From: a bacterium
Lineage (GTDB): Bacteria; Bacillota_I; Bacilli_A; Izemoplasmatales; Hujiaoplasmataceae
Length of the DNA stretch: 32,346 nt
Direction: 5' to 3'
Assembly (NCBI GenBank): GCA_030684695.1
Contig: JAUXXX010000072.1
Span: forward strand, 1 to 32,346
Shown: positions 13,822-17,797 of the stretch, in pieces
How positions within the stretch are numbered: position 1 is the first letter of the stretch
Layout: each line of letters opens with the position of its first letter
Notes under the pieces: generated by a model
What the model saw: the letters and a program-made list of their open reading frames with translations, nothing else
The model's database searches: none
What the model was told of the DNA's origin: nothing
Translations under genes and position numbers: made by a program

Positions 13822-14430
13822 ATGAAACAAAAAATCTTGATTGCATCAAAGAATCCACATAAGCAGTTGGAGATTCAATCCAAACTATACTTTCTTGATT
13901 GCGAAGTAGTGTCACTACTGGATGTTGATGATGGATTTGAAGTAGCTGAAACTGGATCTACTTTTGAAGAAAATGCGATTTTAAAAGCAACTCTTTATGC
14001 GAGACACTATCAGATGTCTTGTATAGCCGATGATTCAGGCTTATGTGTCAAGGCTTTACATGGGGAACCAGGAGTTTATTCTGCACGTTATTCAAGCGAT
14101 GGTACAGATGAATCAAATCTTCGAAAACTATTAAAAGAAATCAAGCATCATAGTGATCGAAGAGCCGAATTTAAAAGTGTGATTTGTTTTAGCACCAAAG
14201 AAGGAAGTTATCGCTGTTTCTTTGGTAGTATCGAAGGAATGATTGAAGACCATCCCATTTATCAACATGGATTTGGATATGATCCCATTTTTTATGTACC
14301 CTCTATTCAAAAAATGCTGTCTCAATGTACCATTGAAGAAAAGAATCAAATCAGTCATCGGGCAATTGCTCTTCAAAATCTCATGGAAGAAATAGGAGGA
14401 TTCATGAATGAAACTAGTCGTAGTCAGTGA
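13822..14430 (+). CDS. rdgB: dITP/XTP pyrophosphatase RdgB (HAM1 family)
   Basis: RdgB hydrolyses ITP, dITP and XTP to monophosphates and keeps deaminated purines out of nucleic acids. Family motifs: ASKNPHKQLEI at the N-terminus, FEENAILKA, the metal-binding IADDSGLCVKAL, PGVYSARYSS, GFGYDPIF and SHRAIAL. It has 202 residues. AGGTGATTTT precedes the ATG. The phosphodiesterase gene begins 23 bases before its end, a pairing (rdgB with an MJ0936/YfcE-type gene) common in Firmicutes. Confidence 0.97.
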   Translation: MKQKILIASKNPHKQLEIQSKLYFLDCEVVSLLDVDDGFEVAETGSTFEENAILKATLYARHYQMSCIADDSGLCVKALHGEPGVYSARYSSDGTDESNLRKLLKEIKHHSDRRAEFKSVICFSTKEGSYRCFFGSIEGMIEDHPIYQHGFGYDPIFYVPSIQKMLSQCTIEEKNQISHRAIALQNLMEEIGGFMNETSRSQ

Positions 14431-14911
14431 CAACCATCGTGACCAAGACGTACTACAATGGATTGTTGACCATCATCCTAACGCAGACCATTACATTCAT
14501 CTTGGGGATTCGGAGATGAAAGAAGAAACCTTGACTCAATTAGGATTTTATGGGGTACGAGGAAATTATCCGTTCGAACCCAAATTCCCATATGATTTGA
14601 TTACTCAATTCGGTTCTGTGAAAACACTCATTACTCATGGACACCAATATGGTGTAAAACTTGGACTTTATGGTCTTGTAGAAGCTGCACTCACACTAAA
14701 TGTCCAACTTGTCATGTATGGTCATACTCATGATGCGAAGATTAGTGAGTATGAAAATATCCTGTTTTTGAATCCAGGATCTCCAAGTATGGCACGTGGT
14801 GGAAAACCAACATTTGCAACCATCGAAATTGAAGAACAAAGAGTACACATATTGATACACGAAATGTATACCAATGAAGTCTTAGCCCAGTTGGATCGAT
14901 TCACCCAATAG
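14408..14911 (+). CDS. YfcE/MJ0936-type metallophosphodiesterase
   Basis: This is a small calcineurin-like phosphoesterase of 167 residues with all metal-binding motifs: SDNH (D8, H10), HLGD, RGNYP, THGH and GHTH, followed by NPGSPSMARGG, which is typical of the MJ0936 subgroup. Such enzymes cleave phosphodiester bonds in model substrates; the natural substrate is not settled. The start at 14408 is chosen because GGAGGA lies 7 bases upstream and the first residues form the usual first strand (MKLVVVSDNH). It overlaps rdgB by 23 bases and is followed after 12 bases by the large signalling-like gene, so all three may be co-transcribed. Confidence 0.92.
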   Translation: MKLVVVSDNHRDQDVLQWIVDHHPNADHYIHLGDSEMKEETLTQLGFYGVRGNYPFEPKFPYDLITQFGSVKTLITHGHQYGVKLGLYGLVEAALTLNVQLVMYGHTHDAKISEYENILFLNPGSPSMARGGKPTFATIEIEEQRVHILIHEMYTNEVLAQLDRFTQ

Positions 14912-14923
14912 AAAGAGGCCACA

Positions 14924-17797
14924 GTGGACTTAATCTCCCAATTAGAACTAGCTAAACAAGAAAGTACTGCTGATGATCGATTGATTCATTATCAATCCAT
15001 CATCGAAGAGGCACTTCGAAATAAGCAAGAACAGGTCGTAAAAGAAGCGGCCTATTTGATATTGAATCATTATAAAGATGCTCAAATGCATGATGAAGTA
15101 ATTGCTTATGCCAAACAACTTATTCAACGAAAATATATTGAGGATTATCAAACACTCATTAAAATATCAGATCAATGGATTCAAGCTGCTTTAAAAAGTG
15201 AAGATTATCTCGAAATGGAAGAAGCCATCGCCTTTAAGGAACAATATTTAGGGCACTTTCCCAAAGAGCAAACCATGCAAGCTTTTTATCGTGCGGTGGC
15301 TTATGAAGGTCAAAAAAAGTACTCCTTAGCGATAGAATCCTTGCTACTTGTTCCTGATACGTTGTCGAATGCAAATCTCACTTCTAAATATCTGAAATTG
15401 ACGATGCTTTACGTAAAAACGAAAAACACATCACTTGCTAAAGAAGCATTTCAGTTCGCCTTACTATATGATCCACAATGCAAAAACGAGATATTTGATT
15501 TAGCTCGATGTGATTTGTTTGCTTCGTCTGGAGAATACCTTGATGCCTTGCATTCATTTGAGGCTTTCTTTGTAAAAACTAATCAAAAACTTCGGTATTT
15601 AGACCGATACATCGATATCAACTGTGAATTGAGTCGATTCGACGAGGCTCTTCGATTTGCAAAAGAGTATGAACCAAAAATGGCTCAATCTTTTTCAAAA
15701 AATTACCGCATTCAGTTTTATGAAGCCATTATTCGGTTAGCTAAGCTTATAAAAGATCACGACTTGTTACAACATGCACAACACCAGTTTGAGCAAATTT
15801 CTTTGCGTACCATTGAGCAAAAATCCATTGATGAAGTACTACATCTTTGGGCAGAAAACAAGACTATATATGAAAAAGAACGCGATATAGCACTTGATAT
15901 CTTTCGCTTATTAAGCTCTTTTTTTCCACATGTTCGATTTGATTGGATTGAGTCTATCGGAAGTGGTTTTGCAGTTTACCATTTTTCCAAAGACCGTTTA
16001 TATGAAAAGAAAATTAGTAATAACGACTTTATTCAATGTTGTGTTCAAATGCATGGTGAGACATTGGTTGTTCATCACTTGGATTATCCATCACTACACG
16101 ATTATTGGAACGAAGAGACAATCTTGCTGGATTCTAATTATGCATTAATCAAGCCAATTCATTACGAATCTGGGAATATCGGTTTTTTTGTGGCAATTGC
16201 AAATAAAGATACAGTATATGACACATTGCTTTCGACTTTTTCAAGAGCGAAATCGCTTTTTGCTTTAAAACTTCATCATCATCGGATCATGAAACAATTA
16301 CGTACTTCAAAGAATCAATTAATGGATGTTTTAACCAAGCAAACGATTCTTTCTATACGAATTAGTGCCGGATATGTATTTTTTGAAACCACTCTTTCGA
16401 GAGATGAGCTTGGCTTTTTTGCAGATATTGTTTCGTTTGAAACATTTCAAAGCCGATTTAGAATGTCAAACACGGTGTATTTAGACGAGTTAATGCATGG
16501 CAAAATTGCAAAGCTCATTATGATGGATGGAAAAAATCACTTGCATTTTTATCAAGTCTATTCCTATACACAAGAAGACTCCATCCATCTATATTTGATA
16601 GAACAGAAAGCAAAAGAGGATTATTCTGTTGAAACAGACTCTACTCGTCCATTTACTCATGTAAAAGAACTTTTAAACGAAGTAAAACCACCCATATCCA
16701 TTATTCTAATTTACAAAGGTGCTTTTTCTCATTTGCCTTTTTTGTTTCAGCAACAACTTCAACTTCGATTTGAAGAGTTCATTCGCAAAGCCATTGGTGC
16801 CTATCATTCAACCTCTGTTACTTTGTTTTCAGGGTTTAGAGCAGAAATTGTGAAGTCTACAGATAAACGAGTATTAACAAGAATGGTAAGACAGATTCAA
16901 GAGTGGTGGAACGATGAGTGTTTACAAAACGCACCTACTTATTCAAATCAAACTCTTCAATTTGCTATCATTCCACTGATAAAAGAAAAAAACATCGATG
17001 TACTTTCAGAAGCCATTGAAGTCTTGTTATTACGCCCTTGGAATGATTTCTTTGTATTTCTAGATAAAGATAGTCTTGAAACTTTAGCGCGTTCTAGTGC
17101 GCAATCTACACGTGTAGAAGAATGGATGAAAAGCAACCGACTTCCAATTTCTTATCAAGCGTTCTTTGAAACGAATACCAAACGGTATTGTTATTATCAA
17201 TTATCAATTCATGATGGACTTGAGAAAGAAGAGATTCTTCCCATAACCATCAAACGCTATCTTCTTCAAGAAAAACTAGATCAAGCTTTGTGGAAAAAAG
17301 CGTTAAAAGAGATTGAACTCTTTTACAAGCAAACAAAAAAAGACATTTCCTTTTGCATTCCACTTTCAGTAGAATCTTTTTCGAGATCAACCAACTCTCG
17401 ATTATTTGTCAGTGAAGTCAAACGTAAGAAAATTCCGCTTGATCATCTTGTCTTACTCTTTGATTTGCGAGATCAAGAAATCAATCCAATTTTTATTGAA
17501 GAATGTCATTATGCTCAAGAAAAAGGGTTTAGAATTGAATTTAAGGTTGATTCTAGCATCTCTTTACGCTATATACACTCTTTTTCAACAAAGTATCGCT
17601 TCCGTGTAGAAGATGAAGTAAGTTTCTCATTTTTGAAAGAACATCTCTATTCGTTGACACTCCCCAATCCTGAGTGGATTCTTACTCAACAAGTCAATAC
17701 ATCAAAAGAAAGCATGTATGTCATTTTAAAAGAAGAGATTCATGATTCCGTAGAACAATTAATTTCTTATCACTTATCACGAATGGAAAAGAAGTAA
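14924..17797 (+). CDS. Large TPR-GAF-PAS-like protein with degenerate GGDEF and EAL domains
   Basis: I do not recognise a named gene. Of 957 residues, about 1-320 are helical repeats of TPR type (for example MQAFYRAVAYEGQKKYSLAIESLLLV). About 325-455 look like a GAF domain ending in a long helix, and about 475-560 like a PAS domain. Residues 575-710 follow GGDEF topology, but the signature is SGFRAE (S636 onward) instead of GGDEF. Residues 740-930 follow EAL topology: ISYQAFFETNTKRYCYYQL places YQL (758-760) at the EAL position, then CIPLSVESF and LVLLFDLRD stand for the strands holding other metal ligands, which are also missing. No membrane segment is seen, so it should be cytosolic. Start is GTG at 14924 after GAAAGAGG. 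The domain calls beyond TPR are by pattern and are inference. Catalysis of c-di-GMP synthesis or breakdown looks unlikely; a sensor or scaffold role is possible. Confidence 0.6.
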   Translation: MDLISQLELAKQESTADDRLIHYQSIIEEALRNKQEQVVKEAAYLILNHYKDAQMHDEVIAYAKQLIQRKYIEDYQTLIKISDQWIQAALKSEDYLEMEEAIAFKEQYLGHFPKEQTMQAFYRAVAYEGQKKYSLAIESLLLVPDTLSNANLTSKYLKLTMLYVKTKNTSLAKEAFQFALLYDPQCKNEIFDLARCDLFASSGEYLDALHSFEAFFVKTNQKLRYLDRYIDINCELSRFDEALRFAKEYEPKMAQSFSKNYRIQFYEAIIRLAKLIKDHDLLQHAQHQFEQISLRTIEQKSIDEVLHLWAENKTIYEKERDIALDIFRLLSSFFPHVRFDWIESIGSGFAVYHFSKDRLYEKKISNNDFIQCCVQMHGETLVVHHLDYPSLHDYWNEETILLDSNYALIKPIHYESGNIGFFVAIANKDTVYDTLLSTFSRAKSLFALKLHHHRIMKQLRTSKNQLMDVLTKQTILSIRISAGYVFFETTLSRDELGFFADIVSFETFQSRFRMSNTVYLDELMHGKIAKLIMMDGKNHLHFYQVYSYTQEDSIHLYLIEQKAKEDYSVETDSTRPFTHVKELLNEVKPPISIILIYKGAFSHLPFLFQQQLQLRFEEFIRKAIGAYHSTSVTLFSGFRAEIVKSTDKRVLTRMVRQIQEWWNDECLQNAPTYSNQTLQFAIIPLIKEKNIDVLSEAIEVLLLRPWNDFFVFLDKDSLETLARSSAQSTRVEEWMKSNRLPISYQAFFETNTKRYCYYQLSIHDGLEKEEILPITIKRYLLQEKLDQALWKKALKEIELFYKQTKKDISFCIPLSVESFSRSTNSRLFVSEVKRKKIPLDHLVLLFDLRDQEINPIFIEECHYAQEKGFRIEFKVDSSISLRYIHSFSTKYRFRVEDEVSFSFLKEHLYSLTLPNPEWILTQQVNTSKESMYVILKEEIHDSVEQLISYHLSRMEKK

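Follow-up and report, generated by a model that had tools for sequence, protein, structure and literature searches.

Proteins in which both the GGDEF and the EAL domain are catalytically dead are usually taken to be c-di-GMP receptors. Whether a degenerate EAL domain binds c-di-GMP is described as depending on its ExLxR motif (PMC10333796). FimX, a c-di-GMP binder, keeps this motif as EVLxR (PMC3527489). E. coli CsrD (EXMXR) does not bind c-di-GMP and works by contact, and its step to a non-binding protein was rather recent; YdiV also does not bind c-di-GMP and acts on transcription factors (PMC10333796). The family described here differs from the usual picture in that it looks old and constrained and is kept in genomes from which the c-di-GMP enzymes seem to be gone.

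The window analyzed here is a stretch of 32,346 nucleotides that comprises an entire contig (C20) of a 1.93 Mb assembly (129 contigs, 87% complete). An open reading frame on the forward strand, with limits at exactly 14924–17797 and a GTG start codon, codes for a protein of 957 residues; this protein and its orthologue family are labeled X. A Shine-Dalgarno-like AAAGAGG, read from the sequence, lies 5 nt ahead of the GTG (14912–14918, forward strand). The conserved upstream neighbors, on the same strand, are rdgB, coding for an XTP/dITP diphosphatase (13822–14430), and a yfcE-type phosphodiesterase gene (14408–14911). Both exceed their NCBIfam cut-offs (TIGR00042 and TIGR00040), in agreement with an earlier note on this DNA made from the letters alone. 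The hydrophobicity of X stays below that of a membrane helix throughout (best 19-residue mean 1.37), and the protein is predicted to be soluble. An Rfam search of the window found no RNA, and a promoter scan found 13 sites, fewer than in shuffled sequence (19.4).

Searched as a single sequence against Pfam, NCBIfam, and the PDB, X has no significant match; the matches returned were at chance level (e.g., Phage_sheath_1C, E value 0.11) and were dropped. The domain order read by the earlier note (TPR, GAF, PAS-like, GGDEF, EAL) was thus not obtainable by simple search, and it was borne out by profiles and models. A profile of 22 homologues matches the GGDEF-EAL region of FimX (4j40) over profile positions 595–925 (E value 2e-10), and a profile of 34 homologues gives the same match at 1.6e-8. 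Among the 22 homologues, 12 match Pfam EAL (best 7e-12) and most match TPR models, with TPR_6 in 18 at E values up to 1 and TPR_2 at 4e-6 at best. X orthologues in other families match EAL, and in some cases also GGDEF, above curated Pfam cut-offs; GGDEF matches occur in orthologues L154 and L153 and not in the window sequence itself, for which Pfam support for GAF and PAS is also absent. When X was compared by hhalign with canonical GGDEF-EAL tandems from related genomes, the result was 99.7% over 369 columns.

An AlphaFold model built with 34 sequences has a mean pLDDT of 81 and a pTM of only 0.42, so the mutual arrangement of the domains is not fixed by the model. The model shows helices at residues 1–311, a GAF-like unit, a PAS-like unit, and then GGDEF and EAL in order. 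Its best Foldseek matches are DosP, PA0861 (PAS-GGDEF-EAL), PA0575, MorA, and LapD, and designed TPR proteins are also among its matches. The all-helical TPR solenoid (residues 1–318; 14924–15877) is supported by the TPR models of the homologues, AlphaFold, and Foldseek. The GAF-like domain (residues ~319–470; 15878–16333), with a long helix at 432–472, and the PAS-like domain (residues ~471–565; 16334–16618) were delimited by model and Foldseek. A separate model of residues 313–570 has a pLDDT of 86 and matches the GAF-PAS pair of DhaR(N) (TMq 0.56), the GAF domains of PDE2/5/6, and LOV-PAS-HK. Profile comparison, Foldseek, and hhalign place a degenerate GGDEF domain at residues ~578–715 (16655–17068), followed by a degenerate EAL domain at residues ~721–945 (17084–17758), for which Pfam matches of the homologues and the FimX profile match give further support. 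All of these features are on the forward strand. The C-terminal third matches GGDEF-EAL tandems by both predicted structure and profile comparison, as had been expected from its topology, and X belongs by predicted fold to the GGDEF (PF00990) and EAL (PF00563) superfamilies.

Both catalytic sites are lost, as the earlier note proposed, and its degenerate sites were correctly recognized at slightly shifted positions. By hhalign, the GGDEF position is occupied by FSGFR at residues 635–639 (16826–16840, forward strand; SGFRAE from 636 in the note) and the EAL position by QLS at 759–761 (17198–17206, forward strand; YQL at 758–760 in the note), with H763 aligned where ExLxR has its arginine. No GGDEF-like motif was found in 77 members, and ExLxR was found in none of the 77 members that cover the site and in all eight canonical controls. 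The metal and catalytic columns of EAL (EAL, N, ExE, DDFG, EGVE) are lost in the window copy and in nearly all members; across the family alignment, the asparagine at 813 is retained in 5 of 72, and glutamates at 845 and 921 are absent among the common residues. An I-site RxxD ahead of the GGDEF position appeared in two chance-like cases among the 77. As read from these alignments, X lacks the GG(D/E)EF of an active diguanylate cyclase and the residues of an active EAL phosphodiesterase. The residue columns were taken from profile alignments of sequences 12%–25% identical, and placement in the EAL domain of the window protein is less certain because this is the fastest-evolving copy (branch 2.93).

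A different pair of residues is fixed in the degenerate GGDEF domain. D647 and R649 (DKR, residues 647–649; 16862–16870, forward strand) are each invariant in 75 of 75 members, a count that covers all but the distant fourth family described below, and no other residue in the C-terminal half of X is invariant. Written as DKR, DIR, DVR, or DRR, the pair opens the helix that follows the GGDEF hairpin. It is no canonical GGDEF feature; seven of eight canonical proteins are gapped or have no arginine at the R649 column. The GAF domain carries KDRLYEK in the window protein (residues 356–362; 15989–16009, forward strand), part of a class-wide [FY]xK[ED]RLY[DE]K-like motif in which L359 is kept in 61 of 77 members and D/E at 361 and K/R at 362 in 75 of 77 each.

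X is present in 32 of the 34 genomes of the window's family. The two genomes without it (G013 and G014) also have no rdgB, so its absence there probably reflects an assembly gap and was not counted as loss. All seven genomes of a sister family in Izemoplasmatales carry X, and a third family of the order, with 49 genomes, gave no full-length match. Relatives with names are assemblies of Izemoplasmatales, Tenericutes, or Mycoplasmatota. A wider profile identified full-length orthologues of ~950–1,065 residues at 44 loci in three other families of the class and more distant relatives in a fourth; one of the X-bearing families, f12, is probably Acholeplasmataceae. The gene order is also conserved. 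The rdgB-yfcE pair is directly upstream of X in all 31 loci of the order that have upstream DNA. Of the 44 loci from the other families, 41 have rdgB upstream and about 35 have a detected yfcE. Several genomes of the third family in the order have rdgB and yfcE close together but no X. Full length is retained in nearly all members. The suggestion of a lone, lineage-specific eroded protein did not hold, as X is instead a set of orthologues found at a constant locus across several families of the class.

Some variation was observed around these loci. The f12 and f16 loci that were read in detail have an additional gene, choline-kinase/APH-like, between yfcE and X (L153:6926–7789, reverse strand; L157:2340–3197, forward strand). 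Directly after X, these families have a conserved protein of ~350 residues with the motif IRNDIVGHPT, a candidate partner (L153:2873–3934 and L156:2880–3920, reverse strand; L157:6201–7253 and L159:6213–7301, forward strand); the copies tested gave no Pfam or NCBIfam match. Several genomes of the third family (L231–L243) have a rubrerythrin gene between rdgB and yfcE, and a pheA-like gene follows yfcE. The X frame is split in two genomes (L224 in G235, and G017:C3:48600–51451) by a frameshift, a sequencing error, or pseudogene formation.

Purifying selection is difficult to reconcile with a C-terminal half that is merely decaying. For pairs of X proteins 69%–94% identical, where dS could be estimated, dN/dS is 0.02–0.14 in the degenerate GGDEF domain and 0.01–0.13 in the degenerate EAL domain; many dS values are high, and the ratios are approximate. 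In a maximum-likelihood tree of the degenerate tandem, X sequences cluster according to taxonomic family, with the fewest changes possible, and the canonical tandems are set apart in a group of their own (100/100). This tree is compatible with the dead family having arisen once and is no proof of it. The window copy, the most diverged in both dead domains, sits on the longest branch, which explains its invisibility to Pfam. A functionless C-terminal half, with the TPR domain alone mattering, would agree with this divergence, with the better conservation of TPR in the window's family (37% vs 20%), where it is the best-conserved part, and with the two split frames. Against this, both dead domains are under purifying selection, full length is nearly universal, D-x-R is invariant, and the EAL domain is as conserved as TPR in the other families. 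We consider a functionless C-terminal half very improbable, and neutral decay is largely refuted for the family. From its sequences, X looks like an old set of orthologues that has been kept under strong constraint in wall-less bacteria and their kin.

The relation of X to c-di-GMP metabolism was assessed from Pfam matches. A search of the window's genome for GGDEF and EAL proteins, which the earlier note had proposed, gave 24 GGDEF and five EAL matches, with canonical c-di-GMP enzymes among them, and most X-bearing genomes carry such enzymes. X is nevertheless kept in at least five near-complete draft genomes in which searches with GGDEF and EAL Pfam profiles detected no canonical enzyme of either kind. 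Genome G034 (97% complete, 0% contamination) has X, no EAL match, and one GGDEF-like protein, which is degenerate (SGIRF). Four genomes of one f22 genus (G229, G288, G317, and G381; 96%–99% complete) have X, no EAL match, and zero or one weak GGDEF match; the X product of G317 (L221) itself yields a weak GGDEF match. G098 and G294 each have one GGDEF match and one EAL match, the latter about as strong as that of their own X copy. Conversely, most genomes of the third family of the order have many GGDEF and EAL enzymes, and none of the 49 has X. Retention of X without detectable enzymes, together with its absence where enzymes abound, suggests that its job is independent of c-di-GMP. No PilZ receptors were found in the 13 genomes tested.

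Other degenerate proteins were observed in these genomes. The GGDEF-like protein of G034 was considered as GdpP and rejected, as it has 387 residues, a PAS-GGDEF arrangement with SGIRF and PAS_3, and no DHH domain. It represents a second conserved degenerate GGDEF protein of ~387 residues with a hydrophobic N-terminus and PAS_3 (G000:C6:8134–8568; L131:1480–2640, reverse strand; L128:826–1950, forward strand). A similar weak match of ~380 residues is the only GGDEF match in G034, G042, G048, and G058. A GGDEF-EAL protein of ~860 residues followed by a protein of ~505–523 residues forms a conserved pair (G000:C101:6349–9738, which is L093; also L095, L099, and L100). The shorter protein has ESLLR, with ExE replaced by EIIDYYTV and DDFG by DLGDQY, and the pair probably consists of one active and one dead EAL protein.

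Two kinds of nucleotide receptor were weighed against a role independent of c-di-GMP. X could be a FimX- or LapD-type receptor, in which the dead EAL domain binds c-di-GMP through a rearranged site and signals through TPR to an output. FimX is its best PDB sequence match and LapD is among its structural matches; an acidic residue near the helix position of FimX Asp507 (D786 in the window protein) is kept in 62 of 72 members; and FimX itself binds c-di-GMP with five of ten residues held to be essential (PMC3527489). The window's genome, rich in GGDEF and EAL matches and with no PilZ, would also need another receptor. The complete loss of ExLxR and the occurrence of X and the cyclases without each other count against this reading and make it unlikely in our judgment, and the nucleotide receptor option of the earlier note, as far as c-di-GMP is concerned, is not supported, on the same observations.

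The ligand might instead be another nucleotide (GTP, a non-canonical purine nucleotide, pGpG, or an alarmone), with D-x-R in a changed GGDEF pocket. The fixed neighborhood with RdgB and usually YfcE fits such a ligand, as does the position of the only invariant C-terminal residues just after the GGDEF hairpin, and degenerate GGDEF domains with a regulatory GTP-binding role have been described (PMC10333796). But the residues of the GGDEF motif are lost in X, and the rdgB and yfcE neighbors in the third family of the order, where X is absent, indicate that the linkage can be mere housekeeping. We regard this possibility as doubtful, to about the same degree as c-di-GMP binding.

We favor a cytosolic, c-di-GMP-independent sensor or scaffold over a c-di-GMP receptor, and give it about an even chance, because X is retained without canonical enzymes and the third family has the enzymes without X. 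A regulatory or scaffolding role, which the earlier note had raised, is supported as a class of explanation. Combining a TPR scaffold, GAF/PAS input, and a dead tandem follows the logic of CsrD and YdiV (PMC10333796) and the observations on X. A TPR-sensor-GGDEF-EAL ancestor would have lost catalysis in both enzymatic domains and kept their fold. The TPR solenoid would hold a partner, GAF and PAS may sense a small-molecule or redox signal, and the dead tandem would relay this signal by protein-protein (or protein-RNA) contact without c-di-GMP. The invariant D-x-R pair may have taken over as the functional feature from the lost active site. Ligand, partner, and function are in this sense inferred.

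Somewhat more tentatively, we suggest that a dead tandem was converted once, long ago, into a c-di-GMP-independent D-x-R module that is class-wide, sits at a fixed locus, and outlives repeated loss of c-di-GMP. X probably has a conserved, non-enzymatic role for which there is no earlier description; within the literature collection searched, nothing was found on Izemoplasma and c-di-GMP, and no title or abstract dealt with a TPR-GGDEF-EAL protein of this kind. Its apparent age, strong purifying selection, fixed housekeeping locus, and retention where c-di-GMP enzymes seem lost make it a good test of a fold without its ligand. One member appears to occur in Acholeplasma laidlawii, which can be grown, so the question is testable.

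Among known systems, FimX (REC-PAS-GGDEF-EAL, with both enzymatic domains degenerate; a type IV pilus regulator) is the best PDB match and shares with X a PAS domain followed by a dead tandem, but X has TPR and GAF ahead of PAS and has lost the ExLxR that FimX keeps. LapD has the same tandem fold with both domains dead (PMC3032553); it is a HAMP-containing membrane receptor that binds c-di-GMP, whereas X has no membrane segment. E. coli CsrD is also a dead tandem without a functional ExLxR and works by interaction (PMC10333796), but it has a membrane GAPES4-HAMP N-terminus in place of TPR-GAF-PAS and acts on CsrB/C RNA. YdiV/RflP resembles X in that a stand-alone dead EAL domain serves as a protein-interaction module without c-di-GMP (PMC10333796), and differs in being a single domain with no TPR, GAF, PAS, or GGDEF.
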